Of a stretch of 64,000 nt of DNA, positions 25,259-61,372 are shown piece by piece; positions within the stretch are counted from its first letter, which is position 1, and each line of letters opens with the position of its first letter. Under the pieces are notes generated by a model. It was not told the origin of the DNA, ran no database searches, and was given only the letters and a program-made list of their open reading frames with translations. Both the position numbers and the translations under genes were made by a program. Source of the stretch: a virus. The stretch lies in the IMG/VR virus record IMGVR_UViG_3300045957_000047, positions 1 to 64,000 of that record. One strand, written 5' to 3'.

Positions 25259-25464
25259 CTGCTTTGGGTTTATTAGTAGTGCCCATGGTGTGGCTTCTTT
25301 GTCTGGCTCTGATTATGTTCTTGGAAGGAATCAGAGCCAGACAAGTCTATCGAAAGAGAAAAAATAAAGGTCACTTTAAATACTGGGTATTGGTAAACGT
25401 ATTCAGTACAATAACCTTTCTGTGTGCATTACTGCTCAGTATCTTAATTCCTCACTTGGTCTAA
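25255..25464 (+). CDS. small membrane protein, 69 aa
   Basis: TTG start coupled to the preceding stop. Two TM segments (ALGLLVVPMVWLLCLALIMF and WVLVNVFSTITFLCALLLSI) joined by a very basic loop (RARQVYRKRKNKGH). Its 3' end overlaps the end of the convergent 2374-aa gene by 21 bp, so the two transcription units run into each other with no obvious terminator between them. Holin-like topology, function unproven. Confidence 0.7.
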   Translation: MTALGLLVVPMVWLLCLALIMFLEGIRARQVYRKRKNKGHFKYWVLVNVFSTITFLCALLLSILIPHLV

Positions 25465-28400: not shown

Positions 28401-31400
28401 TCCAGGTTTTGCTTTTAAAGAACTGCTCTCGTTTGTTGGGGGATCGAGAGAAGTCTAATGCTGCCTGTGCCTGCCTCTGTGCGAAGTCTCGGAAGTCTTC
28501 GAGTGGAGAGTTTACGGAGCTGACAACCTCACTGCTGCCTACTACGATACGTTCTTGCACGGTGTTTCCAGAGCCATCTCGATAGACGATAGCATCAGGC
28601 TGAGGCCTGGCTGCCCGGACTCGTACAGGTTGGTCCAGTGCTCCTGACTCTCTACCCTGTCGGTTTGCCTCGGAGATCATGGCCATCAAGTCAGCATCCG
28701 ATACTTTGTCAAACCATTGAGCAGGTAAGAATCGCTTCAGGTACTTCTTAAACTTGTTGACAATCTGCTTGAGGGTCTTGGCAATGCCTTTGTCTATAAA
28801 AGGACTTTGAGCAAGTTGAGCCAATACCTCATCAGTGAGTTCAATCTGAGAATCGCGATCACCACTCTGGGCTTGAGCAATCAGATTCTGGTAACGAGTT
28901 TCGAAGGTGTTGGTAGGCACATTTTCTCGTAGCAACTCAAGAAGCCCGGTAACACCTCCGCGTGTGCGGAACGTCCGTTGTAGCGTGAGATCGTAGTTGC
29001 CGCCCAGGGATCGTGACAAGCCTCGGTGGAAGAGTTCCTCTGTTAGAACATTACCCACCTCAAAAGCACTCTGAATCTGATCGGCTACCAGGTAGGCGAC
29101 ATTGCCGTCTGTGAAACCAGATACAGGAATATCAGGCCTGATGTCAGAAGGTAGGTCACTGGTCGTTTGGACAATTACAACACCGTCCGTTGCTTTCTTG
29201 GGCCACGAGGCTGTGAAGTCGCGTAATGCCTGGTCTACGTCGGCTGTTGAAAACTGTTGGGGCGCAGGTAACCCGTTAAGATCCGCATCGGGGAGAGTAC
29301 GTGTTCCGTCCGGTATGGCCTGCGCCCCAACAGAGCGGGTTAGAACAGGACGAGCTGCCCGTGTTCGTGCTGGGTTGCCGGTATTATTGCCCCCGGCTTC
29401 AGGGGCGTCGAGCTTTTTTGCATTATCAATAGCTTTGAGGTAAGTAGCAACACCTTTGCGAATCGTATTCGCCTCTTTTTCAGTATACGGACCGTCCGGT
29501 TTTTCTTTTAGAATTTTCCGGTAATCCGTAACTGCTTGTAATTTAGAAATACGAGTACGTTTTTTTCTGGGTATCAGCGTAGCATCAGGGTCTTTGTTTT
29601 TACCTGTGTTAGCAAACGTTCGAAACCTCTTGACCGTGTCGGGATCACTGACGACAAACTGACCTTCACTATCTGTATCGGGTGTAAACAGTTCCTCAAG
29701 AGAAATGATGTTGTCTACAGTGGTCTCTTCCTCTTGCAACGGAGGGGCGTCAAAGTCTACTTCGCCTTGTATTTCCGACTCGATTTCTTCTTCGACTTGT
29801 TCTTGGACATTTTCTTCTTGCTGCGTTGAGGCATTAGGGATCTCGGCAAACGGGTTATAGACAGACGCTACTGTATCTTGAAACTCTCTAGGTGTCATGT
29901 CCTCATTGATTTGAGCAGTCACTTGCTGAGAGAAACTTTGAGCATCTTCAAGAGACAGCCCAGAGTTTAAGGCCATCTGCTCCAGTTCGGAGCCTACAGA
30001 TGTGCGGCGTCCCTGAGTCAAGGATGTGGCTTTCTCCAGATAGTCAGCAATGGCTTTCTTTTGAGGTGCTGCCAGTTGATCAAACTCTAAATCAAGCCTG
30101 AAACTATTGACAACACTGGCAGCAGCCGCTCTTCGACGTTGTGCAGGAGTGATCTCGGCAACATCCACCGCAGGGGAGGCACCCAATAAAGGCTTGAACG
30201 CCGCCCGGATGGATTTGTTGAGGGGCACACTCTCGGGTCGGAACTCTGAAAACTGGTTATCCGCTTCCTGTTGAACTTGAGACAGCAAGTCAGAAGAGGC
30301 TTGCTCGCTAAGCTGTCTTTGGAACTCTATCTCTTGGGCTTGAGCCAGGTTACCCGAACGGACAGCCTCGCTCATCTGACTAAACAGCTCTGCATCTGTC
30401 TGCTGAGAACGAGCCTCTCTACTCTCTAAGGTCGCTTGTCGAGCCACCTGAGCAGACTCTCTACCCTGCTGTACCCTCTCTATCTCATCTCGGATGCTGT
30501 CAGCCAAAGCTTGTCGCTCTTGGGCTTGAGCCAGGTTACCCGAACGGACAGCCTCGGCCATACTCTGAGCTGCTTGCTCAAATTCCAGTTCCTGTTGTCT
30601 TTCTTGTTCTTGTCTTTGCTGGAGCCTTTCTTGTTCTTGTCGCGTCAACTCATCAGAAGCCAGTTGCTGATCCCTACGAGCATCCCTAAATGCTCTCTCT
30701 GAAATACGTGTTCGCAACTGCTCAGTTTGTTCTGCCTGAGTCAGAGGCCTATTAAAATCCAAAGGGTCAGGAGACTGAGGCTCAACTGGAGCGATGTCAG
30801 CACTGGGATTATCCGGGTTGTTGATATCCAGCTCTCTTGATATTCTGCTTTGCTCTCTTTCAGAGCGTACTCTTGCGATCTCAGAAATCAGACTGTTCTG
30901 CTCTTGGGCCAAGCGTTGTAGCCGAGCTTCCCCTCTGGATATAAGATCCTCTTCTGTGTCTCCCGCCTGGCTTCCAGGCAAAGACTGCAGTAAGTTCTGT
31001 TGTTGTTCCTGAGTTCGAGCCTGTGATAGTGCTTCTCTTTGAGCACCTATCTGATCAGCCAATCGAGCGTTGGAAGCGCCTTGCCGAGCATCTAAAGCAA
31101 CACTGCCTGCACCCAATGCCCCTCCCAAACCGGCCCCCAAGGGAGCACCTACGGCCCCACTGGCCAAAGCCTGGCGTTGTGCTTCCTGGTTGGTTAATAC
31201 CTGCCCTACGCTCAGATTGGGATTCTGCTGTGCGAATTGACCTAAAGCCTCACCACCACCTTCAACAAATTCTTGTGCAGCCTCGCCCGTGGCTGACACT
31301 CCCACACGACCAGCTGCCTGCCCAATAGAGGGCGCTGACGATACAACGGGATTCGCACCCGGCTGGATACGGGCAGGCAATACTTGACCGGCCCTTCGAC

Positions 31401-44669: not shown

Positions 44670-45686
44670 TTATTTAAGGGAAGTGCTTACGAAAGTCACC
44701 CAAGCCAAACCGAGACCTTGACGAGTAATGACCGACTGTCCATAAACAAAAAGACCTTGCATAAAAGACGCGAAATAATCTGGATGATCATTAACTTCCC
44801 GACTTTTATCCAGCGTCACTACAGCTCCAGTAGCGTCTTTGCGACCAAAGATAATGGGGTAGACAATCTCACCAGTAGGCAACTCGTGAGCAAATTCATC
44901 AAGCATTGAACTGGTCCACATATCGAAGTTGCCTAGATCCAATCGAATACTGCCGTCTTCCAAAGCAGAACGCTCCACTGCCGGGCAACATCCTTTTGCT
45001 TGTGATTCTTGCCACACTTCCCAATAACAATCAGGAACCAACATGAATGGATCAGTTCCTGGGTTATTGCTGGTTTGCCCCCGACGTTGAGCCACTACAG
45101 ACGCTGAAGTCAGAACACCATGAGCATGCTGATTGAATTTGGCTATACGGTCACAATCAATACGCAGAGGATCATCACACTCCCCCAGGCAGTATTTCTT
45201 TTTCTTGTGTCCTGCACAGTTACCTCGATTCTTGGGGTGTGCTCCCAAAATCATTTCACGGATAGTAGCAGCTGTCAGTATATCGGCTTTCTGACGCATG
45301 AGATCTGCCATGACCTCATTGAAGATATCTCGACTGTCACACATCATCTGCATGTCAACATCGTCAATCTTCATGTTGTAATACTTAGCATGCCCGATGG
45401 TGACTTCGTTCTTGGACCATTCTGGAAAATCATTCTCCAGCCGCATGTTGATGTAGTAATCTCGGATGACTCCGTGCGGCTGGGTACGCCATTCAATAGT
45501 CTGACCACACCGGCGTAGAGGTTCTAACGTCTGATTTGTCGCCAGCTGAGAGATATCCGTGATGTTGTAAAACTCATCCTCAAACTGTTCCCGGAACAGT
45601 TTTTCCATCGGATATTGGTTATGACCCGCCGCCGTAGGGACACCCCGAGGCTTTGAGTCGTAGTTTAAATCATTTCGTCCTGCCAT
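44670..45686 (-). CDS. major capsid protein, HK97-like, 338 aa
   Basis: Length, position after the scaffold gene and the strand pattern fit a podovirus capsid protein: N-terminal arm (PMEKLFREQFEDEFY), GQTIEWRTQPHGVIRDY at the start of the P-domain, a long helix (DIFNEVMADLMRQKADIL), and a C-terminal strand region (FASFMQGLFVYGQSVI). An insertion around residues 150-180 carries five cysteines (NCAGHKKKKYCLGEC and others), unusual for a cytoplasmically assembled capsid, perhaps a metal site. The ribosome-binding site ends the scaffold gene spacer. Confidence 0.85.
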   Translation of the reverse strand: MAGRNDLNYDSKPRGVPTAAGHNQYPMEKLFREQFEDEFYNITDISQLATNQTLEPLRRCGQTIEWRTQPHGVIRDYYINMRLENDFPEWSKNEVTIGHAKYYNMKIDDVDMQMMCDSRDIFNEVMADLMRQKADILTAATIREMILGAHPKNRGNCAGHKKKKYCLGECDDPLRIDCDRIAKFNQHAHGVLTSASVVAQRRGQTSNNPGTDPFMLVPDCYWEVWQESQAKGCCPAVERSALEDGSIRLDLGNFDMWTSSMLDEFAHELPTGEIVYPIIFGRKDATGAVVTLDKSREVNDHPDYFASFMQGLFVYGQSVITRQGLGLAWVTFVSTSLK

Positions 45687-45707: not shown

Positions 45708-46745
45708 TTATGCGCCCGCTTGGGCTTGTAGAAGGTTGATCTTGGTTTGAATTTCCGCTTGATACTTACGGTACTCAGGTCGAGTCATCGTCTGACCGTT
45801 AGCCTTTTTTGGGAAGTATCCTTGATTAGCGTTGGACATATTCTCACGGTACTTCTCTGTCCAGGCACGAGCCTCTGCCAACTTGGATTGTGCCTCTGAA
45901 CTAAGATCTTGTGCTTGAGGCATACTGCCGGTTGGCACAACAGAGGTATCCGACTGAGACTGCTGGCCTAAATCAGTGTGCTGGTCACGAAAGTCTTGGA
46001 GCATACCAATAGCTGACTGAAAGTCTGCTGGTGTTTTTCCTTTAACGTGTGCTGTCAACTGGTCTCCCCAAGCAATCGTACTGCCAGGATAGAGAGGCTG
46101 ATTGTACCGCTGTTTAAATGCAGGCATATCCACCAGTTTAGCCATAGAGCCTAAGCCCATCTGGGACATCCGATTTAGAAGCTCAGTATCGAAACTGGCA
46201 CGCTGTTGCTGTTGCTGGGATTCCAGGATTGCTTGGGTTTGCTGGAGCTGTTGCTGAAGAGGGCCTGTAGCTTCTTGCTGCCACTTTACCTTCTCTTGCT
46301 CCAGACGCTCTTGGAACATACGCTCCATATCACTCTGAGTTTTAGCAACGGCTTTATTGATAATAGGCAGTACGTCACCATGCTGCTCGATCTCATCATC
46401 TGTGAAGGCAAACTGAGTATCTACCTGTGCTTGACGTTGTGCCTGAGCCTGTGCCTGTTGCATGGCATCAAGTTGTCCAGACAGATGAGAAAAGTTATTC
46501 TGAACTTGATTCAACTGATTAGTAGTCTGACCCAGCTGGGCTTGAAGAGCAGCATTCTGTTGCTCCATTTTCTGTAGTTGATAATTTTCTTCAACACTAC
46601 GTTCCCGGATATCCTGCTCTTGAAAATCAGACAAAATGTCCGTAGGTGGTTGTGTGCCGTCATCCAAGTATTTCTGCTCTTGTGCAGTCAAACCCAGATT
46701 TCGAACATTAACAGGTGGAATGGATGGATCTGTAAGAACGCTCAT
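45708..46745 (-). CDS. scaffolding protein, 345 aa
   Basis: Almost entirely Gln/Glu/Ala-rich coiled coil (LQKMEQQNAALQAQLGQT and similar), acidic N-terminus, and a basic C-terminal part (MTRPEYRKYQAEIQTK) as in T7-like and P22-like scaffolds, where the C-terminal helix-turn-helix binds the capsid protein. It is directly upstream of the capsid gene. Expected to direct procapsid assembly and then leave. ATG 46745 follows cggggagattg. Confidence 0.85.
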   Translation of the reverse strand: MSVLTDPSIPPVNVRNLGLTAQEQKYLDDGTQPPTDILSDFQEQDIRERSVEENYQLQKMEQQNAALQAQLGQTTNQLNQVQNNFSHLSGQLDAMQQAQAQAQRQAQVDTQFAFTDDEIEQHGDVLPIINKAVAKTQSDMERMFQERLEQEKVKWQQEATGPLQQQLQQTQAILESQQQQQRASFDTELLNRMSQMGLGSMAKLVDMPAFKQRYNQPLYPGSTIAWGDQLTAHVKGKTPADFQSAIGMLQDFRDQHTDLGQQSQSDTSVVPTGSMPQAQDLSSEAQSKLAEARAWTEKYRENMSNANQGYFPKKANGQTMTRPEYRKYQAEIQTKINLLQAQAGA

Positions 46746-46972: not shown

Positions 46973-47722
46973 TCAGAATATTCTTCCGACTTTAAATCCC
47001 AACACATTATCTTCATGAAAATGTACCCCCAAAAAGGTACGGCCTTGTGCAAAACACCAGCATGCATGTAGCACTTCCTGGTACAAATCAGGACTCAGGT
47101 CGAAGTGATCTTTGACAACATTGGCAGTCACTCCAGATACTGCTCCATGGCCAGCACCATAAGACCAGTGCCCCGGTGCCGGGTACCCATTCACGGTAAA
47201 GATAGTGCCGTGAACTTGGAAGAAATCTTCAGGCCTGGGCTGTTTCCAATAATACTTGATATCAAACATCCGATCCAAAGCTTCAGGCCATCGTCTATTC
47301 AGGTCTCCCATAAAGGCAGCCATCGAGCCATCTTTATCGCAAAACTGAATCGTTCCCGGTTTGTCTACCTTGTAAGGGACATTCAAGCGGCGCAGCTCAT
47401 CGTGTAAGAACTCCCCTAGATGCCAGGGTTTGTCCATGCTTACAGCCTGAGCCAAGGCAACAGGTCTTGGGTTTTTATTGGTACCCAACCGAAGCTTCTG
47501 GGCCAACAGTCGAGGTACTTGACCTTCAAGCTCAGACGGGTTTTGTTTGCTCAGAAAATCACCCGACCACTCACCTGCCTGAGTACGGGCAACAGTCTGC
47601 TCTACTTCTCGCAACGAATCTGCGAACTCAGGAGTCCCCGGAATTAGAGGTGCTGGCGTATTCCAACGCTTGCCTTCCCTTGGAGAGACAACATCACGAG
47701 GTGTTTGAATAAAAGCTTCCAT
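46973..47722 (-). CDS. PAP2 / vanadium-haloperoxidase-like enzyme, 249 aa
   Basis: The three PAP2-superfamily motifs are all visible with exact spacing. K156-x6-R163-P164 (KYYWKQPRP) binds phosphate or vanadate. YGAGH (H192) stands for the PSGH motif, with Ala in place of Ser. R228-x5-H234-x3-D238 (GRTFLGVHFHED) carries the covalent-ligand His. The superfamily includes acid phosphatases, lipid phosphatases and vanadium haloperoxidases. The protein has no TM segments, which argues against a lipid phosphatase and for a soluble phosphatase or haloperoxidase. It sits in the fibre/enzyme cluster of the virion operon, next to the matrixin. ATG 47722, 1 bp after the upstream stop. Confidence 0.85.
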   Translation of the reverse strand: MEAFIQTPRDVVSPREGKRWNTPAPLIPGTPEFADSLREVEQTVARTQAGEWSGDFLSKQNPSELEGQVPRLLAQKLRLGTNKNPRPVALAQAVSMDKPWHLGEFLHDELRRLNVPYKVDKPGTIQFCDKDGSMAAFMGDLNRRWPEALDRMFDIKYYWKQPRPEDFFQVHGTIFTVNGYPAPGHWSYGAGHGAVSGVTANVVKDHFDLSPDLYQEVLHACWCFAQGRTFLGVHFHEDNVLGFKVGRIF

Positions 47723-47723
47723 A

Positions 47724-48422
47724 TCAAGCAGGTCTGTTTTTAGGGTAACGAATCAGAAGTTGTTCAATATCTTCAGGCTGCCAAGATCTTAAGGCAATAA
47801 GCTCAGGATAGAGTAAAGAGTCCCGGTTTCGAGAGTGCGACAACCCTAAAGCATGTCCGATCTCGTGATCCGTTACCGTCTCGAAGAATTGATCGTTGGT
47901 CCAAGTCTCTGAGGTATCGAAGATCATATCTCCGCACAAGGGTCCACAGGCTGACATACGATCCCCGGTACCTGGCACATACGTCACTCCCAGAGTACCT
48001 CCCGCACCATCCAATTCAGCCCACTTAATATGGATGTCCGCATTTCGAAAACCCGTTTGTCGAAACTCAATACCACAAAGGTTCTGAACAATGGCAAACC
48101 GTTCTTGTAAAATTATACCCGCTCTGGAAGTACCTTGATTGATAGGATTATGAGACCAGGTTACCGGCTGTCCTTGGTCTACCTTGTGCCATCGACGCTC
48201 TCGGGGCTCCGGGCAATTACAGACTGGACTCTTTGGCTCTTCATTGTTTTTGAAAAACGTAATCAGCTCATCAATCGCTTCTCGTTCTGTCTTAAAAGAA
48301 ACTCCCAAAAGCATGCGGGCAATGTCGATGCTTTCAGACCACAGAAACATACGCCGAAGACGCAAAGGCGACAAGTTTTTGAAGAGAGAACGAAGATCAT
48401 CAATGTCTTTGTAGCTGTTCAT
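47724..48422 (-). CDS. matrixin-like zinc metalloprotease, 232 aa
   Basis: Metzincin zinc site HEIGHALGLSH with H186, E187, H190 and H196 (HExxHxxGxxH). Before it are the usual beta-sheet and a calcium-site-like Gly/Asp loop (GAGGTLGVTYVPGTGD), as in matrixins. The Met-turn that should follow reads DSLLYP, with Leu in place of Met. An N-terminal helical segment of about 70 aa could be a propeptide or a virion-attachment part. No signal peptide. In the virion it could cut host surface or matrix proteins; alternatively it processes fibres. Start overlaps the previous stop (TAATG). Confidence 0.85.
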   Translation of the reverse strand: MNSYKDIDDLRSLFKNLSPLRLRRMFLWSESIDIARMLLGVSFKTEREAIDELITFFKNNEEPKSPVCNCPEPRERRWHKVDQGQPVTWSHNPINQGTSRAGIILQERFAIVQNLCGIEFRQTGFRNADIHIKWAELDGAGGTLGVTYVPGTGDRMSACGPLCGDMIFDTSETWTNDQFFETVTDHEIGHALGLSHSRNRDSLLYPELIALRSWQPEDIEQLLIRYPKNRPA

Positions 48423-49591
48423 TAAACTGTTCTCGTTTGCCCTTCAGGGTGTAAATAGATTCGAGCATAGGCCACTTCTAAAGAGGCGGGATAATCATTG
48501 ACATCCGCAAAGTTTTCCAGTGCTCCTCCTGGAAGTGCTGCCATAGGATAATTACCTCCGGCGGCGAAGTTGATGATCAGGTACATAAACTGGTCACTGA
48601 TCAAGTCAGAAGAGCCGTTGATGCAGTTGACAATCTGGCCATTCAGATAGAAGTGAATGTAGTCAGGTGCCCAATCAACAGCCACGGTATGCAACTCGTT
48701 ACAAGTAGTGCCCGCCGTATCCAGGAATGTCTTGTCGTTCCCATCGCAATCTTTATATAGCCCGGCATTGGGTTGGCCATCGACCTTGAAGGCTTGGCCG
48801 TCGATAGTCCACCGATTCAAAGTGCCCAGCGCATCCCCGGTAAAATAGTGGTAAGCATTGGTCAGAATAGAGTCACAACCATAGTTGTCAACGTTCTCTT
48901 TGAAATCGATCTCGTGGTTGAACTTATCGGTACCATTGCCGTCGTTCTCTTCTGCATTCTTGTCAAATGCATTATTGTAATATAAGCAATTGAGTAGCCA
49001 AGCAGCTGTCCACATACCTCCGGGACAACACGGATCGCGAAGACAAACTTCTGCATACCCGTATTTGAAACAGGCCGTGTCTCTGGTATTAATCATTCCG
49101 GAGCTGAGAAGAGGGGGTTTGGGCATAGGCTGTAACCCAGAACCGTTGTCAAAAAAAGTATCCGGTGCAGGGCCTTCAATAGGGGCAGCAGTAATCAGAA
49201 GATTACCCTGAGCATTTCGACTGAAGGGGTTTGCGCCTTGCCAGCCTTGTCCACCCAGTGTATCTACGTAATACTGATCTTCGTTGTTGATAACCTGAGT
49301 AGGCCCCCAGATGAATGACGTACTCCACTTGTTGGGGTCTACAGGAGTAGACGGATTGTTAAACAAGTCTTCAAAAATCAGCGTGTAGTTTGACAACACA
49401 TGGGCAGGAGCATCGTTTTTTGTCTGTGGTACGACATTATTGCAATCACTAATCACAGGGTTTCTTCCCAAGGTATCTAAAATGGGATATAGCCGATCCA
49501 GCTGTTTTTTAAGATCAGCTATCAATTCATACCCCTCTTGCTGTAACTCGTTACGAGCATCCATCACAGGATTTATAACTGACTTGTCCAC
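48422..49591 (-). CDS. glycoside hydrolase family 16 endoglycanase, 389 aa
   Basis: Catalytic motif HEIDFKE with E227 (nucleophile), D229 and E232 (acid/base) is the exact GH16 signature. Around it is a jelly-roll pattern: LIFEDLFNNP, NKWSTSFIWG, SSGMINTRD with YGYAEVCLRD, and HTVAVDWAPDYIHFYLNGQ. GH16 enzymes cut beta-1,3(4)-glucans, agar, carrageenan or porphyran, so the natural substrate may be algal or capsular polysaccharide. The N-terminal 60 residues are helical and could trimerise or attach it to the fibre upstream. GTG at 49591 or ATG at 49564 starts it, overlapping the collagen gene. No signal peptide, consistent with a virion depolymerase. Confidence 0.9.
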   Translation of the reverse strand: MDKSVINPVMDARNELQQEGYELIADLKKQLDRLYPILDTLGRNPVISDCNNVVPQTKNDAPAHVLSNYTLIFEDLFNNPSTPVDPNKWSTSFIWGPTQVINNEDQYYVDTLGGQGWQGANPFSRNAQGNLLITAAPIEGPAPDTFFDNGSGLQPMPKPPLLSSGMINTRDTACFKYGYAEVCLRDPCCPGGMWTAAWLLNCLYYNNAFDKNAEENDGNGTDKFNHEIDFKENVDNYGCDSILTNAYHYFTGDALGTLNRWTIDGQAFKVDGQPNAGLYKDCDGNDKTFLDTAGTTCNELHTVAVDWAPDYIHFYLNGQIVNCINGSSDLISDQFMYLIINFAAGGNYPMAALPGGALENFADVNDYPASLEVAYARIYLHPEGQTRTV

Positions 49592-51101
49592 CTACAATAT
49601 CCCAATCTGAAAGCGTGTCACAGGAATCGACAAGACAGAGACTGATTTCATAAACACCTGCCGTAACGTAATTATAGATAGCCGTCTGGCCTGTTTGTAC
49701 CGTGTCTTGCTGATTATTTTCACCCCACGATACTACAAAACCGCTGTTACTGTCTCCGTAAACCTGCACCTCTGTGTTTTCCGACACGGTAATGCAAGCA
49801 CACTTACAACAAGTGGGTGACTCATAGGGAACCACCGACACTTCGTCAACAGTTGCACCTGTGGAGTCCAAAACACGAATGACTGTTTGAGTTGAACAAG
49901 CTGCCGCAGGATCAGCAATGGTCTGTAGAGAGACTGTTTGACTGTTAGTGCCTCCTGTTCCTGGCTCTCCTTGCGGACCTTGTGGTCCTACTTCACCTTG
50001 TGGTCCTTGAGGACCTACTTCCCCTTGTGGACCTACTTCACCTTGTGGACCTGCTGGCCCTTGTGGACCTACAGTACCTCCACCAGTACTTGGAAGAATA
50101 ATAGATGAACTGGTTACAGGATCACAATTTTCCTGAGTCGCACTGACTGACAGTTCATTGCCATTGAGGTTTAAAGACAACGTCTGTAAACACTGACTAA
50201 CCATCTGAGGAATGTTCAAGTAAGGCTCCAAGAAGGGAGCCATAGCTTCCCAGGTAACCAACTGACTGGTCAACTGCGATCCGTCTTCCAAACTCAGTTG
50301 AGTTCGCCAACCTTGATCTGTTGTCAGAACAGCCGTACCAGTGACTCGGGTCGAACTGTTTTGTGCAGCCGCTGTCGAGATTGTTTTGCTGACAGTGCCA
50401 GAATCATCCGAGATATTAAACGTGACGGCAGTATATGGATTGGCTTCTGTACCATCTCCACCGATTCCAGAGCAAGCAACACTGGGGCTGGTACCTGCAA
50501 CACCATTGGTACCGTCAACACCGTCACGACCTGCGGGGCCTTGTGGGCCTACCTCACCTCTGTCACCTTTGTCCCCTTGAGGGCCTTGAGGACCTTGCGA
50601 CCCTATAGCACCTGTAGGGCCTACATCTCCTCGATCACCTTTGACCCCTTGAGGACCTTGAGGACCTTGAGGGCCTGTCTCTCCGCGCTCACCTTTTTCT
50701 CCTTGAGGGCCTTGTGGGCCAGCGCTACCTTCGTCACCACAGCACCCATCTTTGCCGTCTTTACCATTTTGACCCGATTGACCCATCGGACCCATTGGGC
50801 CAATCGGACCTTGTCGACCATCACAGCCGTCTTTACCATGCTGTCCGTCCTGGCCGTCTCGACCGTCTGCGCCGCGCTCTCCCCGAGGGCCTTCTTGACC
50901 CCGTTCACCCCGAGGACCAATATCTCCACGCTCGCCTTTTTGACCTGTCGCACCGCGCTCCCCTTGCTTACCCGTGTCACCTTTCTCGCCAGGCTTACCT
51001 TGAGGGCCTTCTTCGCCTTGAGGACCGGGAGGACAGCGAAGCGTGTCAAGAGTACACTTCAGTTCTTCTCGTGTTACATAATCGTGATGGTGGTTGCTCA
51101 T
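49551..51101 (-). CDS. collagen-like fibre protein, 516 aa
   Basis: After 25 residues (MSNHHHDYVTREELK...) comes a long Gly-X-Y array, residues about 25-210, rich in GPQ, GER, GDR and GKD triplets, then a beta-rich globular domain, a second shorter Gly-X-Y block (GPQGPQGEVGPQ type) and a C-terminal domain with paired cysteines and an Ig-like end (VQVYGDSNSGFVVSW). Triple-helical collagen-like shafts with C-terminal globular tips are known in phage tail fibres. First residues HHH may bind metal. Start overlaps the upstream stop (ATGA). The antisense strand also shows a long open frame because of the 9-bp codon periodicity. Confidence 0.9.
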   Translation of the reverse strand: MSNHHHDYVTREELKCTLDTLRCPPGPQGEEGPQGKPGEKGDTGKQGERGATGQKGERGDIGPRGERGQEGPRGERGADGRDGQDGQHGKDGCDGRQGPIGPMGPMGQSGQNGKDGKDGCCGDEGSAGPQGPQGEKGERGETGPQGPQGPQGVKGDRGDVGPTGAIGSQGPQGPQGDKGDRGEVGPQGPAGRDGVDGTNGVAGTSPSVACSGIGGDGTEANPYTAVTFNISDDSGTVSKTISTAAAQNSSTRVTGTAVLTTDQGWRTQLSLEDGSQLTSQLVTWEAMAPFLEPYLNIPQMVSQCLQTLSLNLNGNELSVSATQENCDPVTSSSIILPSTGGGTVGPQGPAGPQGEVGPQGEVGPQGPQGEVGPQGPQGEPGTGGTNSQTVSLQTIADPAAACSTQTVIRVLDSTGATVDEVSVVPYESPTCCKCACITVSENTEVQVYGDSNSGFVVSWGENNQQDTVQTGQTAIYNYVTAGVYEISLCLVDSCDTLSDWDIVGGQVSYKSCDGCS

Positions 51102-51700
51102 CAGGGATTCTCGATATAGCTAATAGATTGCAGAGGAACTAAAGGATCTTCGCAGACAGCATCTGCTATTTTAGTCAGCAACTCGTTGTTAAGGGTTGTC
51201 AGTGTAACCAGTTCTGTCTGTTGAACCAGCTGTTGTTGTAAGACCTCTTTCTCAGAAGCGATCTCAAGTAATTTAGTGCAGACCGCATCAAGCTGTTCCA
51301 CGATCTTGGCAGTGGCGACAACATCACTGCTGCCTCCTAATAACGTTTTTACTTCCGTCAAACATTCAAGGACTTCTAAATTCCCTACAGTCCCTGTCAC
51401 GCACTCGTAAGAGAAACTGATTTCTTCACCTTCCGTGGGTGTTCTGCCTCCATAGTCAGCACAGTCAATACCAAACCGGTAACTCCCTGGAGTGAACAGG
51501 TACTGCACTCCAGAGCCTTCAATGCTGGCAGGTTCTGCAGGTATCCAAACATCACTATCTACTTGGTACTCAATGGTTGTCAAAGGTAGGTTGGCAAATT
51601 TTAACAACCCTCTACATTTCGGGCCTACCCACAGTTGATCGACCGTGCAGATGTACGTGTTGTTGTAATCAGAAACTCGAATCTGAGGCAAGCAACTCAT
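51101..51700 (-). CDS. fibre-associated protein, 199 aa
   Basis: N-terminal beta-rich domain with cysteines (MSCLPQIRVSDYNNTYIC) followed by a helical coiled-coil C-terminus (EKEVLQQQLVQQTELVTL). This order, beta head then coiled coil, is typical of short trimeric fibre or adhesin parts. No family recognised. Tightly coupled to the collagen gene (ATGA) and to the upstream gene (TAATG). Confidence 0.7.
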   Translation of the reverse strand: MSCLPQIRVSDYNNTYICTVDQLWVGPKCRGLLKFANLPLTTIEYQVDSDVWIPAEPASIEGSGVQYLFTPGSYRFGIDCADYGGRTPTEGEEISFSYECVTGTVGNLEVLECLTEVKTLLGGSSDVVATAKIVEQLDAVCTKLLEIASEKEVLQQQLVQQTELVTLTTLNNELLTKIADAVCEDPLVPLQSISYIENP

Positions 51701-52359
51701 TACACCAACTCCGCATCAACGACAACAGTTCGAGGATAATCCACAGATACCGACCAAGCATTATTCGCAGGATTGTCCGGAGCAGTTCCGTTATCATCTG
51801 TAGTCACCATCAACTGGAATCCGTTGGCTGACTTGGTTGCTTGAACAACGGTGATCTTAGGGTTATCTCGATTGTTAATATCTTCATGACCCCCGACAGT
51901 AATTGAGTAGTCATCTCCATCAGGATGGGGTACATCGAACACAATGGTATAACGCCAAATGTTTCCACCTGAAGGGCCAAAGGGTGTCACGCTTGCTCGA
52001 CGAGCCCATAGCTCGGAACCATTCAAACCATTGGCTCCTACCGCTACAAACCCTTCATAGATCTGCTCTGTTTCCAAGTTTAGCGTCTGAGCAGAAGACC
52101 CTGCACACTTGAACATACCAATCTTCTCAAGAGGTATGGGTCCCCACACAAGACTGCCATCACAAGGATCTACTCCGGCATACACCGGGTTTCCTTCCTC
52201 ATCACAACCTTCAATAACGGCTGCTTTGACTTTCTCACAATGAGCCTCCAGTGCCGTTTCAATAGCTGAGATTTCAGCAGGATCAGTAATACGCTGACTG
52301 TTGGCATCAAAGTAAACAGCCTCCCCGGTTGTCGGGTCTATAAACTTGTTAGCGTACAT
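51700..52359 (-). CDS. fibre/virion protein, 219 aa
   Basis: The N-terminus NKFIDPTTGEAVYFD resembles that of the neighbouring 120-aa protein (IKFLDPNTGLIV), so the two share a small module. After a helical segment comes a beta-sandwich domain (LNLETEQIYEGFVAVGANGL and following strands), as in receptor-binding or collar proteins. Function unknown; the position in the fibre cluster suggests a surface location. Confidence 0.7.
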   Translation of the reverse strand: MYANKFIDPTTGEAVYFDANSQRITDPAEISAIETALEAHCEKVKAAVIEGCDEEGNPVYAGVDPCDGSLVWGPIPLEKIGMFKCAGSSAQTLNLETEQIYEGFVAVGANGLNGSELWARRASVTPFGPSGGNIWRYTIVFDVPHPDGDDYSITVGGHEDINNRDNPKITVVQATKSANGFQLMVTTDDNGTAPDNPANNAWSVSVDYPRTVVVDAELV

Positions 52360-52391
52360 GCGTACTCCTGATCCTGTTAATAGTTACCTAC

Positions 52392-52754
52392 TTAAGCGTA
52401 ACAGATCTCGCCTACAGGCAAGAGGCCAACAGGACATGCTGTCTTCTCGTGAGTCGCTGTGATGTCAGTACCATCTGCAGAGTAGAGTGTTGTACTAACC
52501 AAAATCGTTTCATTGACTGTATTATCGGTGTTATAAGAGATCTCAAAAGTAGAGACTTCTTTGGCACCTTGCTCAATCAAAGTTGGGTCAGTGTTACCTA
52601 CAGTTTGTACACAGACATCTGCTGTCTCTACCGAAGTTGTAGGACAAGGAACTGCTGCGGCAATCTGAGCCGCTGTCAAATCAGCACCGCTGACACAGTC
52701 TTTGGCAACAATAAGGCCTGTATTAGGGTCGAGGAATTTAATCGCTTTTGGCAT
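52392..52754 (-). CDS. fibre/virion protein, 120 aa
   Basis: Starts with the same 'KF-DP-TG' module as the 219-aa neighbour, then a helix (LTAAQIAAAVPC) and a beta-rich part with cysteines (CVQTVG, CPVGLLPVGEICYA). Probably a small surface or tip protein that uses the shared N-terminal module for attachment. No family recognised. Confidence 0.7.
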   Translation of the reverse strand: MPKAIKFLDPNTGLIVAKDCVSGADLTAAQIAAAVPCPTTSVETADVCVQTVGNTDPTLIEQGAKEVSTFEISYNTDNTVNETILVSTTLYSADGTDITATHEKTACPVGLLPVGEICYA

Positions 52755-52769
52755 CGTAATATCTCAAAG

Positions 52770-53273
52770 TTAAGGTGACTCAGATGAGTCGGTTAGATTA
52801 TCTTCAGGGCAGCAAGGTGTATTTGGATCTACCTTGTAGCACTCGTCTTGCGTATATACCGGCAGCATTACCGTCACACAGCCACCATCATCTTTAATCA
52901 GACTTACCAAGACAACCGGCATGCCTTGATAATGCGTCGTATCAACAGAAGACACACGACCGTCTCCAATAGGCCCCTGTTCGCCCTTGGGACCTTGCGG
53001 ACCCAGTTGTCCTTCTGGACCTCTTGGACCGATTGGGCCTCTATCTCCAGGAATGCCCGCAGGTCCCATAAGACCTTGTTCTCCTTTAGGGCCTCGATCT
53101 CCCTGAATACCTTGCTCACCACGAGGGCCTCTATCGCCACGAGGACCTGGTTCTCCTGGACATCCTTTAGGGCCTTGCTCTCCTGGAGGACCTTGGACAA
53201 CCATGGATGTAGGTGTTGGCTCTTCGCAGTGCTGATCTTTAACTGGAGCAGGCCACGGGTTAAGCATTTGCAT
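52770..53273 (-). CDS. collagen-like protein, 167 aa
   Basis: A short N-terminus ([19 protein letters not shown]) is followed by an unbroken Gly-X-Y block of about 28 triplets ([19 protein letters not shown] and so on, residues about 29-115), then a 50-residue acidic, cysteine-bearing end. Smallest of the three collagen-like proteins; it may form a trimeric rod that links neighbouring virion parts. Its start codon lies inside the tiny basic gene at 53260-53397. Confidence 0.85.
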
Positions 53274-53397
53274 TGCGAACTCTCCGGGTAAAAGGTGTTG
53301 GAGAAGTGATCAAAATAGAACGGGGAGTAAATTTCAAAAAGTTCTTCTTCTTAATCAATCTCGCTGTGGAATTACGAATCCTGTACTGTCTCCTCAT
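53260..53397 (-). CDS. tiny basic protein, 45 aa
   Basis: ATG 53397 overlaps the upstream stop (ATGA) and the stop TAA at 53260 lies inside the start of the next collagen-like gene. So this 45-residue frame fills precisely the gap between two collagen-like genes. Extremely basic ([19 protein letters not shown] and TRRVRNANA), net charge about +13. Could be translated only for coupling, or could bind acidic fibres or DNA. The fit on both sides is the main support. Confidence 0.55.
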
Positions 53398-54866
53398 AGC
53401 AAAGTCACCGGAGTATTGACAGGAATAGAACCACCTGGATCACACAGCTCTTGGATTGATCCGCTCACTGTAGTCACCGCCGCTACCGGAGTCAAATACC
53501 GGTGCTCGTAGCACACTTTAATCCGACCGGTGCCAATAAAATCAGCAGAGAAAGTGCCTCCTTGAACATACTGTTCAAAGTTTTGCAGCAAATCAGGTGC
53601 CGGGTACTGCTCTACATATACAGACCCATCGGACTCTGTACCCCCCTGCCAAGCATTAGCCACTGGAGATCCCCCAACCTTTCGATTCAAGAAAACCCCT
53701 GCAGGTGCCTCTAAACGAAGAATAGGCTGGATAGGCGGATAGCAGGTCAAATCATCTTTTTGAGCAATGGGAAGACCTGTCGTATCGACCAAGATATTGA
53801 ACGTGAAAGTTCCATCCAGGTCGAAGGCCACACAGGAGAAGTTACCTTCAACGCTGGCTGTGATATTACTGACCGTACCCGACTGACCTGGTGTTGACTG
53901 CAAGACCATACGAGCTGAGTCTACAGGATGTACAAAGTCAATCTGTGTTTCCCCCGATGTTGCTTGAGGAACAGGCGTACCGGTAGGTGTGACTGTAATT
54001 GGGTTACCGGTGTACCCGCAGCCTAAAAGAGAGACACACCCCTGAACTGTTACCAGTTCTTCTCCATTGGGCGTATTGAACAGCAGGTCCATACAACTGG
54101 GATCTACTGCCGACTGGCTTACAGAGATCAGAGAATCTCGACCGGCAGCCCCATCTGCTCCTTGTATTCCTTGTGGTCCCATCTCACCCTGAATACCTTG
54201 AGGGCCTTGAGGCCCAACATCACCTCGATCTCCTTGAGCACCTCTCTCGCCTTGCGGGCCTACTTCGCCTTGTACACCTTGTGGACCGACTTGCCCTTGC
54301 GGGCCTACCTCTCCTTGAGGACCTTGTGGACCTGTGGCACCCGTGGCTCCTGTCTGACCTCGCACACCTTGCTGGCCTTGCGCACCTGTCTCACCTCGGG
54401 GGCCTTGCTGACCTTGAATACCTTGTGGGCCTTGCGAACCTTCTGAACCTTTGACTCCATCCAGACCTCTGGGACCTGTAGGGCCTGTGTCTCCACGCTC
54501 ACCCCGAGGGCCTTGGGGTCCTGTGTGACCTTGAATACCTTGAGGTCCAGGAGGGCCTTCACAACCCCGAGGTCCTTCATCTCCACGAGGGCCTACAATA
54601 CCTTGAGTACTGCATCCGCTATCGGCAGGTGGCTGAACATTCACTACAGGTGCCGGAGCAGCCGGAGCAGCCGGGGGAGTCACCATAATCACAGGAGGAT
54701 TGATATGACCGTGCCCATGACCGTGACCGTGACCATGACCATGACCATGACCATGACCGTGCCCATGACAATCCTGCTTGTGGTTGTCAGGTGGTGGCAT
54801 GATATACGCCACTTTGGGGTCACAACAATCTTCATGAGGATCGTCGCTTTTCAAATAATTAGTCAC
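53394..54866 (-). CDS. collagen-like fibre protein with His-Gly array, 490 aa
   Basis: N-terminal part has DPHEDCCDP and then an array of 11 His alternating with Gly (residues about 34-54), a strong candidate for Ni, Zn, Cu or Fe binding. A Pro/Ala-rich linker follows, then a Gly-X-Y block of about 170 residues (GPQGPQG, GERGDTG type), and a C-terminal beta-rich domain of about 220 aa that is probably the tip. Start is GTG 54866 behind taggagaaaag. Trimerisation would put 33 histidines side by side. Function as a virion fibre is inferred from the collagen-like shaft. Confidence 0.88.
   Translation of the reverse strand: MTNYLKSDDPHEDCCDPKVAYIMPPPDNHKQDCHGHGHGHGHGHGHGHGHGHGHINPPVIMVTPPAAPAAPAPVVNVQPPADSGCSTQGIVGPRGDEGPRGCEGPPGPQGIQGHTGPQGPRGERGDTGPTGPRGLDGVKGSEGSQGPQGIQGQQGPRGETGAQGQQGVRGQTGATGATGPQGPQGEVGPQGQVGPQGVQGEVGPQGERGAQGDRGDVGPQGPQGIQGEMGPQGIQGADGAAGRDSLISVSQSAVDPSCMDLLFNTPNGEELVTVQGCVSLLGCGYTGNPITVTPTGTPVPQATSGETQIDFVHPVDSARMVLQSTPGQSGTVSNITASVEGNFSCVAFDLDGTFTFNILVDTTGLPIAQKDDLTCYPPIQPILRLEAPAGVFLNRKVGGSPVANAWQGGTESDGSVYVEQYPAPDLLQNFEQYVQGGTFSADFIGTGRIKVCYEHRYLTPVAAVTTVSGSIQELCDPGGSIPVNTPVTLL
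54705..54767 (-). repeat. His-Gly coding hexanucleotide repeat
   Basis: Plus-strand units of six bases (atgacc, gtgacc, gtgccc) encode on the minus strand 11 His and 10 Gly in strict alternation. Codons vary (CAT and CAC, GGT and GGG), so the array is kept at protein level rather than by recent slippage alone. Confidence 0.92.
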
Positions 54867-54875
54867 TCTTTTCTC

Positions 54876-55298
54876 CTAGCAACAACATGGATTCTGCATC
54901 AACCACAATTGGGCATAGTCAGCACTTACCGGGGTTGCTTGATACGCAAAATCCCCATCGAAATCTAAAGACTCATAGTCTGCCAAATGAAAGTGATACT
55001 TGCCTGGCATCGTCAAAACAATATCAGACCTGATATTGGTTAGGAATGCACAATGACTACAAACCATCAACGGAGTAAACAAAGGATCACAATCGTCGTC
55101 GTACACTTTGTCGATATAAAGCTCTTTTCCAGGAGGCAAACCCCATATACTGACATATACAGGAAGCGCTCCAGTACGACTTCTATTCTCTACAGTTACG
55201 TCAAACGAAGACGTATTGGTAACGCACAGAGGGTAGTCTGTAGGGCACTTGGGCTGGTTTACTTTTTTAGTTCTAATTGGAACAGAATGATATGTCAT
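54876..55298 (-). CDS. fibre-associated protein, 140 aa
   Basis: Beta-rich domain (VTVENRSRTGALPVYVSIWG) resembling an Ig-like or beta-sandwich fold, with cysteines at both ends and a CCC terminus. No family recognised. Lies between the collagen gene and a tiny membrane protein in the same operon. Starts 1 bp after the membrane-protein stop. Confidence 0.7.
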   Translation of the reverse strand: MTYHSVPIRTKKVNQPKCPTDYPLCVTNTSSFDVTVENRSRTGALPVYVSIWGLPPGKELYIDKVYDDDCDPLFTPLMVCSHCAFLTNIRSDIVLTMPGKYHFHLADYESLDFDGDFAYQATPVSADYAQLWLMQNPCCC

Positions 55299-55299
55299 T

Positions 55300-55473
55300 T
55301 CAATTTAACCAGTAATAGCAGAGTGCAAAACCAAGCCCAAACCCCAGTAGCCCATGACACATGCAACCAAACAAAAACCAACAAATATCACAAAAACGAT
55401 TCCAACGATTGCTGAAAAGATTGACGTACCATTCCAACGCTTTTCCAAAAGGTTTTTCTGTATCAATAGACAT
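55300..55473 (-). CDS. small membrane protein, 57 aa
   Basis: ATG 55473 overlaps the stop of the upstream carbohydrate-binding gene (TAATG) and the stop at 55300 is 1 bp before the next start. The N-terminal half is polar and basic; residues about 30-55 form a hydrophobic helix rich in Cys and Gly (GFGLGFALCYYW). Single-TM protein: possible small lysis or virion membrane-contact protein. No known family. Confidence 0.6.
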   Translation of the reverse strand: MSIDTEKPFGKALEWYVNLFSNRWNRFCDICWFLFGCMCHGLLGFGLGFALCYYWLN

Positions 55474-57485
55474 TATATGTAGATTCCAGCAAAATCCTCG
55501 ATATCTTCAACAACTTGGCCTTGTCCTTGTGAGATATTCAAGATGTAAAGCAGTTCAACAGTGTCTGAAAAATCTACCAACGCAGGATCACTGAACGCAT
55601 TCCGAGCCTGTTGCCATAATGCACCACACTGCCCAGATACTGCTTGACCCCAAAAATTGCTGTTAGCCCAAGGTTGTATATCTCCGGTGGCGGCATTAGA
55701 ACGGAAATCAGCAGTGCCTCCCTGTCCCTGAGCTGCGTTGAGATTACCATTATCGATTCTGACATAACTGAGGTTGGCCTTGACCCAGGCAAGATTGGAA
55801 GGGTCTGTGTTCTGATCGTTCCATTCTGAATGCTGAACAACGTGTACTCTTCCCAACTGCTCAGCTGTGGCTCCCAGATTATTTTCAAGGTACCGAGCGA
55901 CCAAGTAAGTAAAGTCAGAAGGCCCACCTTCTGCCACCCACACGTCTGCCCCGGTATCCAAAGTCTGTTTCCATCGAGTAGCAAACTCCACAATGTGGTT
56001 GAACGACCCGTCTGTATTGCCTCTGACCTTGAACCAACTACTGCCGTAAGCCTGGTTCAGAACATTTTCGACACCTGGATTGTAGTTACTCCAACGAGTA
56101 CCTCCTGGTGTACTCCCGTTACTCCAGACTCTGAGACCGTAAGCTCCTCCCGCGACCATAATGCGAGAACCTAACGAGTACGTTTGTACGACGCATGCCC
56201 CTGCTGCTGACGCATGAATGTCGTCTGGATCTGGAGCTGAATCATAATGAATAGACAACAGATCATCTGGCGTAAATCTACCAGTAGCCGCAGGCTTTCC
56301 CAAAGGTGTCAGGTTGACAGACGATCCTACGCAACTGAGTTTCGGTACTGCATTGGGGTCTCCAGTTCCATCTTTGAGTAGCGCGACTGCATCTACATAG
56401 AACTGACCTGAACGACCGGCGAACTCTAACGTATGCACACCTGCGGACAAAGCCATCCAGTAGTTACCCCCACCCTCATTGGGATCAATACTGATCTGCC
56501 AATCAAACGGCGTGTTAGGGCCTGGTATGGATCGATATAATTTATGCCAAGATCCGGCTGTTGCTGTCTGTCCGGGTACCGAGCCACCTGAGTGTCTCAC
56601 CCATAAATCGTTATTTTTGTCTGGGGCTTCATCGTATAAAGCACTGTTTCGAATATACAGACGGTAGTTTCCAGCCTCGGACACATTGATTGTGTAACTG
56701 ATTACATCGTTCTGATTAACGTTAATACTGAGCGTCGGTTGTTGGTACACCAAGTGTCCTGAACCGGTAAAACCCGATCGAGCTGTACTGAGCTGCCAGT
56801 TGTTTTTTAACTCTGTATCTTCGGCCTCAAAAGCGATCTGGCCAGAAGTTGCTTCGAAAACACATCCGGTAGCTACTGATCCGCCACCGCCTCCGCCTCC
56901 TGCTGACTGCCCGGTACCTTGATAGGTATGGTTATCGTTATCCACACACGTACCGTTACTGGCAGAAACAGTGATTCCTAATGTCGCAAACGTGCTATAT
57001 ACAGACTCCGGAATGTTGGTAAAAGTGAAAGCATTTTCAATCACTACCGTGCTATAGACGCGACCTTGGATAGTCGTCCACACGGCATTGCCGTTACCCA
57101 GACCTGAAGTCGTCCCTGTCAACTGACCAGCACTGGAAGTGATTGAATCGATTCCTACTCCGGTACCACTACATGAACTGTAATCAGAAGTGCGTACTGA
57201 GAAGGCAACTGTCGACTGTTTCTCACAGCCTGTTGTTGGGTCAAACAAGGTAACGGTTAGAGACTGTCCTTCTAACTGCTGCTGTACGTCAAACGGGATA
57301 CCTGATATCTGAAAAAAATCTCCAACGTATCTACCCACATAAACAACATTGTTAATAGTTACAGTAACCCGTGCGTCATCTCCAAACCCCTCGGAATGTC
57401 CTACGATAATCCCGGCAAAAGAAGTCGTATCCGTAACTGAGAACGCACTACAAGGGTCGATAGGTGGAGAAGGGCAAGTGAACAT
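55473..57485 (-). CDS. carbohydrate-binding fibre protein, 670 aa
   Basis: The frame opens at 57548, but the ATG at 57485 lies 4 bp after the preceding stop and is preferred. Order: two Ig-like or repeat modules (residues about 1-190), a Gly-rich hinge (SAGGGGGGGSVATG), a CBM6-like beta-sandwich (AFEAEDTELKNNW, GNYRLYIRNSA, GVHTLEFAGRSG) and a C-terminal domain of about 260 aa beginning LLSIHYDSAPDPDDIHA. That spot looks like the Asp cluster of nucleoside-hydrolase-like (DUF1593-type) domains. So it probably binds polysaccharide and may cut a glycosidic bond. Likely a receptor-binding fibre or tip. Confidence 0.75.
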   Translation of the reverse strand: MFTCPSPPIDPCSAFSVTDTTSFAGIIVGHSEGFGDDARVTVTINNVVYVGRYVGDFFQISGIPFDVQQQLEGQSLTVTLFDPTTGCEKQSTVAFSVRTSDYSSCSGTGVGIDSITSSAGQLTGTTSGLGNGNAVWTTIQGRVYSTVVIENAFTFTNIPESVYSTFATLGITVSASNGTCVDNDNHTYQGTGQSAGGGGGGGSVATGCVFEATSGQIAFEAEDTELKNNWQLSTARSGFTGSGHLVYQQPTLSINVNQNDVISYTINVSEAGNYRLYIRNSALYDEAPDKNNDLWVRHSGGSVPGQTATAGSWHKLYRSIPGPNTPFDWQISIDPNEGGGNYWMALSAGVHTLEFAGRSGQFYVDAVALLKDGTGDPNAVPKLSCVGSSVNLTPLGKPAATGRFTPDDLLSIHYDSAPDPDDIHASAAGACVVQTYSLGSRIMVAGGAYGLRVWSNGSTPGGTRWSNYNPGVENVLNQAYGSSWFKVRGNTDGSFNHIVEFATRWKQTLDTGADVWVAEGGPSDFTYLVARYLENNLGATAEQLGRVHVVQHSEWNDQNTDPSNLAWVKANLSYVRIDNGNLNAAQGQGGTADFRSNAATGDIQPWANSNFWGQAVSGQCGALWQQARNAFSDPALVDFSDTVELLYILNISQGQGQVVEDIEDFAGIYI

Positions 57486-60823: not shown

Positions 60824-61372
60824 ATGTCTACCTCTCCTGTTTTTCAGCCTTTCTGTCCATCCACCAAACCGAACTATTCTATGATGTTACCCTGTGACAT
60901 AACTTCCTTAGTTACAGATGTTTCTGTAATTGTTGACGACAACGCTGACACCGTCTCACTGTCAGTAACAAAAATGACCCAGGCTTCTGGATGCTGGAAA
61001 GAGACTACTGAACTCATCGATGTCTTATCTCCTGACTTAATTGCGAACCTACTGAAGTCTTTTCCTCCTGGAAGCACTGAGACTCTTCCCGACTTCAATG
61101 GAGTTATTACCGTAGATACTCTCAATGAAGACGGCAGTATTGGAACTGTCGATGTCATTGGTGGCTCTGTGTCTCCAAGCAACATGTTAGGCTCTCTTTT
61201 GTTTATCAACGGAGCCATGCATTACATCAACAATACGCCTCCTCCTGAGGCCATCCACACGGGTCCTACAGCCCCCACCAATCCAGACACCTCTTTGTGG
61301 GTCTCAAACAATATTGTTAAAACGAAGAACGCCAGTGGTTTCTGGGTTCAAAACACACCTTTTGGAGCATAA
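60824..61372 (+). CDS. fibre-region protein, 182 aa
   Basis: Beta-rich protein with a Pro/Thr-rich N-terminus (MSTSPVFQPFCPSTKPNYS) and a C-terminal segment AIHTGPTAPTNPDTSLWVS typical of phage neck or fibre proteins whose end contacts another fibre. No enzyme motif. Followed 2 bp later by the repeat-containing 814-aa gene. Transcribed opposite to the main virion operon, suggesting a separately controlled fibre cassette. Confidence 0.7.
   Translation: MSTSPVFQPFCPSTKPNYSMMLPCDITSLVTDVSVIVDDNADTVSLSVTKMTQASGCWKETTELIDVLSPDLIANLLKSFPPGSTETLPDFNGVITVDTLNEDGSIGTVDVIGGSVSPSNMLGSLLFINGAMHYINNTPPPEAIHTGPTAPTNPDTSLWVSNNIVKTKNASGFWVQNTPFGA

Follow-up and report, generated by a model that had tools for sequence, protein, structure and literature searches.

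We examined a window of viral DNA, the first 64,000 nucleotides of a contig of 74,198 bases (IMG/VR record IMGVR_UViG_3300045957_000047), and concentrated on a minus-strand gene module at positions 46973-57485. Here three collagen-like proteins are encoded together with a matrixin-type metalloprotease, a glycoside hydrolase of family GH16, a PAP2-superfamily enzyme and a protein that joins a carbohydrate-binding-module (CBM)-like domain to a nucleoside-hydrolase-like (NH-like) domain. On balance we think it probable that the module specifies a virion-borne set of rods and depolymerases which loosens the protein and polysaccharide surroundings of the host cell. Judged by their sequences, at least three and probably four of the enzymes look made to cut sugars and proteins. 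Three of them recur in a phage that is unrelated by its head and packaging genes (contig C107), which suggests a shared kit for passing host slime. A first-pass annotation, made from the sequence without database searches, had described the principal genes of this module, and our analysis follows its seven open reading frames (ORFs). Membership in protein families was decided by the curated cut-offs of a Pfam profile scan. The seven genes are:

46973..47722, minus strand: PAP2-superfamily enzyme, soluble, 249 amino acids (aa); PF01569, E 7.6e-6, below the cut-off
47724..48422, minus strand: matrixin, an M10-type metzincin, 232 aa; PF00413, E 2e-16
48422..49591, minus strand: GH16 endoglycanase, 389 aa, GTG start; PF00722, E 9e-7
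49551..51101, minus strand: collagen-like fibre 1, 516 aa; PF01391, E 4e-35
52770..53273, minus strand: collagen-like fibre 2, 167 aa; PF01391, E 6e-17
53394..54866, minus strand: collagen-like fibre 3, 490 aa; PF01391, E 2e-26
55473..57485, minus strand: three-part CBM/NH-like protein, 670 aa when counted from the ATG chosen in the first-pass annotation

All seven ORFs were found where that annotation had placed them, and all are on the minus strand. Its account of co-oriented genes that overlap or are coupled agrees with the coordinates, since neighbours in the module overlap by 1 nucleotide (nt) or 41 nt, the latter between the GH16 gene (48422-49591) and the gene at 49551-51101, or are separated by short gaps. 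Its three Gly-X-Y proteins, its metzincin with the motif HEIGHALGLSH and its GH16 enzyme with HEIDFKE likewise proved correct, with the motifs as written and the corresponding Pfam families above their cut-offs.

The three collagen-like proteins exceed the PF01391 cut-off of 27.2 and carry uninterrupted runs of perfect Gly-X-Y triplets (60+13 in fibre 1, 25 in fibre 2 and 52 in fibre 3), far beyond chance expectation. In fibre 1 (49551-51101) the runs are accompanied by globular domains. Fibre 3 (53394-54866) also contains, near its N-terminus, a perfect His-Gly repeat of ∼10 units that is possibly metal-binding. The collagen-like proteins of phages are known as trimeric side-tail proteins, and those of E. 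coli O157 prophages resemble ours in being phage-encoded Gly-X-Y rods flanked by other domains; they differ in that no linked matrixin, GH16 or PAP2 gene is mentioned in the available portion of that paper (PMC3368898). A collagen-like protein is required for morphogenesis of an Stx2 podophage (PMC5155283). We also observed an independent case of a collagen-like fibre and a matrixin as neighbours, in an actinophage-like IMG/VR contig (L162:5866-8053), where the fibre is directly followed by a matrixin with a signal peptide.

The matrixin scored 60.7 bits against PF00413 (cut-off 24) and matched the structures of MMP-1 (a matrix metalloprotease, MMP) and karilysin in the Protein Data Bank (PDB). 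The zinc-binding signature HExxHxxGxxH is present both here (HEIGHALGLSH) and in the C107 homolog (HELFHLLGLDH; C107:9642-10397, residues 7-199, E 4e-14). At the Met-turn, SLLYP aligns to ALMYP of MMP-1, and because leucine thereby replaces the methionine, we regard the protein as an atypical matrixin that has the fold and zinc motif of its family. Ahead of the catalytic domain is an N-terminal extension of ∼100 aa, and these N-terminal 100 aa gave no match to any family when searched alone. A cysteine (C68) and the residues RRW within this part (residues 63-90) are conserved in both phage matrixins, and their placement appears to resemble the cysteine-switch propeptide layout of MMPs. A profile search of 369 gammaproteobacterial genomes found no further full-length matrixin of this kind beyond that of C107, and a matrixin-motif scan of IMG/VR returned many matrixins unrelated to ours. 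A metzincin of phage origin has also been described in Listeria; that enzyme differs in being secreted, in having a TIMP-like lipoprotein partner and in acting on the cell wall (PMC8235301), whereas the matrixin described here lacks a signal and no such partner was identified.

The GH16 enzyme scored 28.9 bits against PF00722 (cut-off 22), matched GH16 structures in the PDB and has an N-terminal extension of ∼60 aa. The catalytic signature ExDxxE reads EIDFKE here (within HEIDFKE) and EIDIME in the C107 homolog (C107:45495-46430, E 2e-11). Its nearest named families in NCBIfam were EglC/ExoK-like beta-glycanases, with scores below the cut-off. Bacterial homologs are plentiful in the Granulosicoccaceae, with 5-17 matches in each of nine genomes. 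The two phage enzymes were not each other's nearest relatives in the GH16 tree and have long branches, so that their shared ancestry, which we had considered, is unsupported by the tree. Seven further IMG/VR phage contigs with GH16 (L216-L222) formed a separate clade with 100/100 support; in the one of the seven that was inspected (L218), the GH16 gene directly follows a beta-helix tailspike-like gene.

Assignment of the PAP2-superfamily protein calls for more care. It scored 26.2 bits against PF01569, short of the cut-off of 27.2, yet the two motifs K-X6-RP (KYYWKQPRP) and R-X5-H-X3-D (RTFLGVHFHED) are kept and can be aligned with those of the C107 protein. The serine of the PSGH motif is alanine in both phage proteins (GAGH here, VANH in C107). 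A single-sequence search gave a weak match to PhoN acid phosphatase, and a two-sequence profile gave weak matches to algal and bacterial vanadium bromo/haloperoxidases, the best being 1qi9 (E 0.002). The haloperoxidase part of the first-pass label PAP2/haloperoxidase-like is not established because of the alanine, and the protein may be a phosphatase, a haloperoxidase or neither.

The protein at 55473-57485 had been called a CBM6-like fibre. CBM6-like is fair as a label though sub-threshold, and a separate domain family that makes up the C-terminal 250 aa had been missed. We divide the protein as follows:

56841-57485, minus strand: N-terminal region with no family match
56286-56840, minus strand: CBM-like domain; Golvesin_C (1e-4) and CBM_35 (2e-3), both weak
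55473-56288, minus strand: C-terminal domain with an NH-like predicted fold; its family, which has no name, consists mostly of secreted proteins of marine bacteria

The C-terminal domain is covered by no Pfam or NCBIfam model. Two motifs spotted by eye, DPDD and WVAEGGPSD, guided a pattern scan of bacterial genomes that returned 53 stretches, and a phmmer search with the C-terminal 271 aa gave 43 domain matches (best E 1e-42). We aligned 37 bacterial relatives of 31-43% identity (alignment A4). Most are from Granulosicoccaceae, the others from Acidimicrobiales, Chromatiales, Flavobacteriia, Saprospiraceae, Planctomycetes and Opitutales, and the module thereby names a widespread, uncharacterised family of enzyme-like proteins of marine bacteria. 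The bacterial proteins are fused to CBM_10 or to GH42/DUF4832-type regions, and three of them (L256, L275, L280) have the CBM followed by the C-terminal domain, as in the phage protein. In the tree, the phage domain lies on a long branch of its own within a 100/100 clade of Granulosicoccaceae, Chromatiales and Acidimicrobiales; a Bacteroidota/Planctomycetota/Verrucomicrobiota clade is separate from it. AlphaFold2, run on the 38-sequence alignment A4, gave a confident model (predicted local distance difference test, pLDDT, 84; predicted template modelling score, pTM, 0.87). Nucleoside hydrolases or their mutants were nine of the 11 top PDB matches of this model in Foldseek, at probabilities of 0.75-0.97, E values of only 0.03-0.07 and template modelling (TM) scores of 0.40-0.46, and a search of predicted viral structures found nothing significant. 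The nucleoside hydrolase motif DxDxxxDD is absent, the invariant acids being D-x3-D-x-DD. Membership in Sde182/PF07632 was considered and rejected: there was no profile match, and the profile-profile probability was 0.4%. Given these acids and the lack of a PF07632 match, we describe the domain as NH-like in its predicted fold only.

The search that revealed C107 was made in 36 genomes reached via the C-terminal domain. The PAP2 protein had a single full-length match in them (35% identity, E 1e-32), located on a 55-kb contig of the Granulosicoccaceae metagenome bin G067 (loci L294-L297). C107 is a phage, as indicated by its terminase (phrog_15), portal (phrog_21), capsid (phrog_29), tape measure (weak) and tail protein; its nearest terminases, at ∼27%, belong to Pseudomonas and Escherichia phages. 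By its genes, then, it is a siphophage with terminase, portal and capsid of lambda-type families, unrelated to the present phage in head and packaging genes. When all ORFs of C107 were compared with all ORFs of our contig, the PAP2 proteins (E 1e-34), the matrixins and the GH16 enzymes paired, as did relatives of the gene at 60824-61372 (1e-16) and one more gene. Since the genome set had been picked by another gene, the presence of matrixin and GH16 beside PAP2 on C107 is an independent coincidence of rare genes. The proposed search for the gene set in other phages thus found PAP2, matrixin and GH16 together, though scattered, on one contig.

The rarity of these genes was apparent from several searches. 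TBLASTN of the 50,697 phage records of INPHARED yielded no relative of the GH16, matrixin, 51101, CBM/NH-like or PAP2 proteins, nor of the C107 PAP2 or matrixin. In IMG/VR, scans for exact peptides of the matrixin, the GH16, the portal, PAP2 and the domain of the 51101 paralog (described below) revealed no close relatives. Among the 369 gammaproteobacterial genomes no other full-length PAP2 of this kind was detected; PAP2 relatives at E<=1e-8 occurred in one of them, and the profile had partly been built from the protein of that genome. The profiles contain C107 proteins, so that the C107 hits in profile searches are such by construction. The first-pass remark that no described phage has the full set is consistent with the INPHARED searches and with those of related phage records given below. 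The main elements have precedents, but the full set has none in anything searched.

C107 also encodes cysteine-rich tail proteins, a ParB-methyltransferase and a serine recombinase. Recurrence of the C-terminus of collagen-like fibre 1 in an 885-aa protein of C107 seemed plausible by eye and was rejected after it failed in phmmer.

The module sits in the head-structure block, after the portal gene and before the scaffold and capsid genes, all co-oriented. The first-pass count of seven products was incomplete, as it omitted the small ORFs at 51101, 51700, 52392 and 54876 and also those at 57490 and 57942, whose membership in the module is uncertain. These and the boundary genes are:

44670-45686, minus strand: major capsid protein, phrog_267; downstream boundary
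45708-46745, minus strand: presumed scaffold, from position and sequence; downstream boundary
51101..51700, minus strand: small 199-aa protein, paralogous (37% identity, E 8e-26) to a product of the second spike cluster (contig 66626-67897, plus strand)
51700..52359, minus strand: protein without family match, 219 aa, 1-nt overlap with its neighbour
52392..52754, minus strand: protein without family match, 120 aa
54876..55298, minus strand: small protein without family match, 140 aa
57490..58238, minus strand: two small proteins in the gap from module to portal, one of 98 aa and one of 151 aa that has a single hydrophobic segment
58294..60429, minus strand: portal, phrog_332, E 9e-27; upstream boundary

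The products of 51700, 52392 and 54876 matched nothing in family-profile scans. The 51101 protein likewise belongs to no known family, and its role may be that of a fibre adaptor.

The portal is 22-26% identical to those of the closest isolates, namely Rhizobium phages, HMO-2011, CRP roseophages and phiM6. The ten-gene core of the HMO-2011-type group has been named (PMC9038755); our assignment uses the homologous portal and capsid and the conserved gene order, by which the phage is a distant HMO-2011-type, short-tailed member of the HMO-2011 supergroup. These podoviruses (Puniceispirillum phage HMO-2011, CRP roseophages, Sinorhizobium phiM6) share with it the order portal, large gene, scaffold, capsid. 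They differ in the length of the portal-capsid interval, which is 12.6 kb here and 1.0-5.7 kb (median 3.0) in the 44 relatives where both genes could be located, and which in those relatives holds the scaffold plus, often, one large protein. Low-scoring or sub-threshold LysM and Hydrolase_2 matches were seen in the large proteins of two of eight relatives scanned, and the large gene of phiM6 gave a sub-threshold cell-wall-hydrolase match. Neither GH16 nor matrixin was found in 41 relative records searched, and one of these (L014) has a clear collagen-like fibre, downstream of its tail genes; many of the records are short fragments, and absence from them is for that reason only indicative. The module is therefore an enlargement of the portal-capsid locus that, of the lineages sampled, only this one has.

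We envisage that the collagen-like proteins would form trimeric rods, as side-tail fibres do in other phages, and that the GH16, CBM/NH-like, matrixin and PAP2 proteins would be carried by the virion or packed along with it, working from outside the cell. They would bind and loosen the exopolysaccharide and protein matrix around the host cell, and the loosened matrix would let the phage reach its receptor. Incorporation into the virion, trimer formation, substrates and host are all points that we infer. Several observations weigh against this scheme. In C107 the matrixin, PAP2 and GH16 genes are scattered (9.6, 34.5 and 45.5 kb); the latter two are in the tail region, but the matrixin precedes the terminase and lies outside it. 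No collagen-like run was found in C107. C107 was binned from a metagenome, and binning can bring in contigs of foreign origin. The PAP2 protein, below its cut-off and with alanine for the PSGH serine, may have another activity or none, and the NH-like enzyme could act on nucleosides and not on polysaccharide. Finally, a search of 48 genomes from the presumed order of the host detected no portal relative.

Scattering of the genes in C107 indicates that the enzyme set is conserved and leaves a cluster or physical machine unsupported; the absence of collagen there indicates that the rods are not an obligate partner. The matrix-clearing machine of the first-pass annotation accordingly survives as regards position in the structural block, lack of signals and recurrence of three enzymes, but is unsupported as a physical assembly, and its combination of collagen rods with enzymes holds for this phage and not for C107, which has other head and packaging families and also lacks the CBM/NH-like protein. 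The same facts lend themselves to a different explanation, in which the rods and the CBM-bearing protein act as adhesion fibres of the ordinary sort, the enzymes being accessory genes acquired independently and inserted by chance at one permissive site, with no joint machine. The placement of the two phage GH16 enzymes on long branches, not as nearest relatives, would suit such independent acquisition, as would the great variability of this locus in HMO-2011-type relatives. We nevertheless judge it rather unlikely, because C107, though unrelated, has three of these same rare types of enzyme and because PAP2 relatives were detected in 0 of the 50,697 phage records and 1 of the 369 gammaproteobacterial genomes. 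A wider form of the virion-borne reading is that phages of algal-surface Granulosicoccaceae carry a multi-enzyme virion kit that is passed between unrelated lineages and, ahead of adsorption, takes apart a matrix composed of protein and polysaccharide; we advance this tentatively, as slightly less than an even prospect. Such a kit might conceivably consist of an endoglycanase, a matrix metalloprotease and a soluble enzyme of PAP2/haloperoxidase fold, to which a carbohydrate-binding NH-fold protein and collagen rods are added here, and we put this composition forward with equal reserve.

Secretion signals bear on a second alternative, that GH16 and its partners are auxiliary metabolic genes which help the infected host to use algal laminarin. 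In kelp-associated viruses, GH16 laminarinase genes (17 reported, with 186 viral laminarinase-like sequences already in NCBI) have been read as metabolic genes (PMC11126160), and the GH16 and C-terminal domain of our phage have close kin in algal-associated bacteria. The kelp-associated enzymes are likewise phage-encoded and from a seaweed setting, but cluster with Flavobacteriaceae (PMC11126160), whereas the enzyme described here has Granulosicoccaceae-like kinship and no secretion signal. Hydrophobicity scans, which are not a trained signal-peptide predictor, found no signal-like hydrophobic N-terminus in any protein of the module 46973-57485, as the first-pass annotation had stated, nor in the three enzymes of C107. 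By the same scans, a signal- or lipoprotein-type N-terminus was present in nine of 10 bacterial GH16 homologs and in none of nine phage GH16s (this phage, C107 and the seven other IMG/VR phages), and a signal-like hydrophobic stretch preceded the C-terminal domain in 33 of 40 bacterial relatives but not in the phage protein. This contrast argues against auxiliary metabolism and, as far as sequence can tell, favours virion-borne depolymerases over secreted metabolic genes; a phage protein that must act outside the cell and has no signal would most simply travel with the virion or escape when the cell lyses. Moreover, the genes are embedded in a late structural block beside fibres, the matrixin and PAP2 enzymes are ill-suited to laminarin use, and the nearest named GH16 families are, as noted, of EglC/ExoK type. 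We therefore consider the metabolic explanation improbable. These data touch the live question of whether GH16 genes of seaweed phages are metabolic helper genes or virion tools, and the signal comparison points to virion tools.

As to the host, it is likely, on gene content, a Granulosicoccaceae-like marine bacterium living on algae. This proposal draws on the kinship of the C-terminal domain and GH16, and on the gene set held in common with a phage contig binned with Granulosicoccaceae; with no portal relative in the 48 genomes, the assignment is one of gene kinship only. In one study of bull kelp blades no genus was more abundant than Granulosicoccus (PMC9238374), and a second study has it among the commonest predicted hosts of kelp phages (PMC11126160). 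Since the bacterial homologs are mostly from this family, known from kelp surfaces, the algal or biofilm matrix suggested in the first-pass annotation is a reasonable setting.

A third possibility, that the matrixin is a maturation protease trimming the collagen-like fibres or other virion proteins of the phage itself, might be entertained since its gene is two genes from fibre 1 and matrixins include collagenases, but we rank it very low: a matrixin of this kind occurs in C107, where no collagen-like protein was found, and phage capsid proteases are normally of other families. The phage depolymerases known so far are mostly single tailspikes aimed at one polysaccharide. A phage-borne set that adds a matrix-type metalloprotease and an enzyme of PAP2/haloperoxidase fold, present in two unrelated phages, would show that phages can attack biofilm protein and biofilm carbohydrate at once. 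There are known or predicted cases of lipase-type virion depolymerases and of a phage peptidase which degrades a polypeptide capsule (PMC5380687).

Two further features of the contig were noted. At the end of the late block, an LPD38 polyvalent-protein domain occurs in a 2374-aa protein encoded at positions 25444-32568 of the window. The second spike cluster (contig 60824-69275, plus strand) runs in the opposite direction and is placed between the portal and terminase genes. It encodes a 182-aa protein, an 814-aa protein with DSSVTV...DLSVPPGAGATTVVST repeats, two beta-helix proteins (one pectate-lyase-like), a LamG-like protein and the paralog of the 51101 protein, which is 423 aa long.

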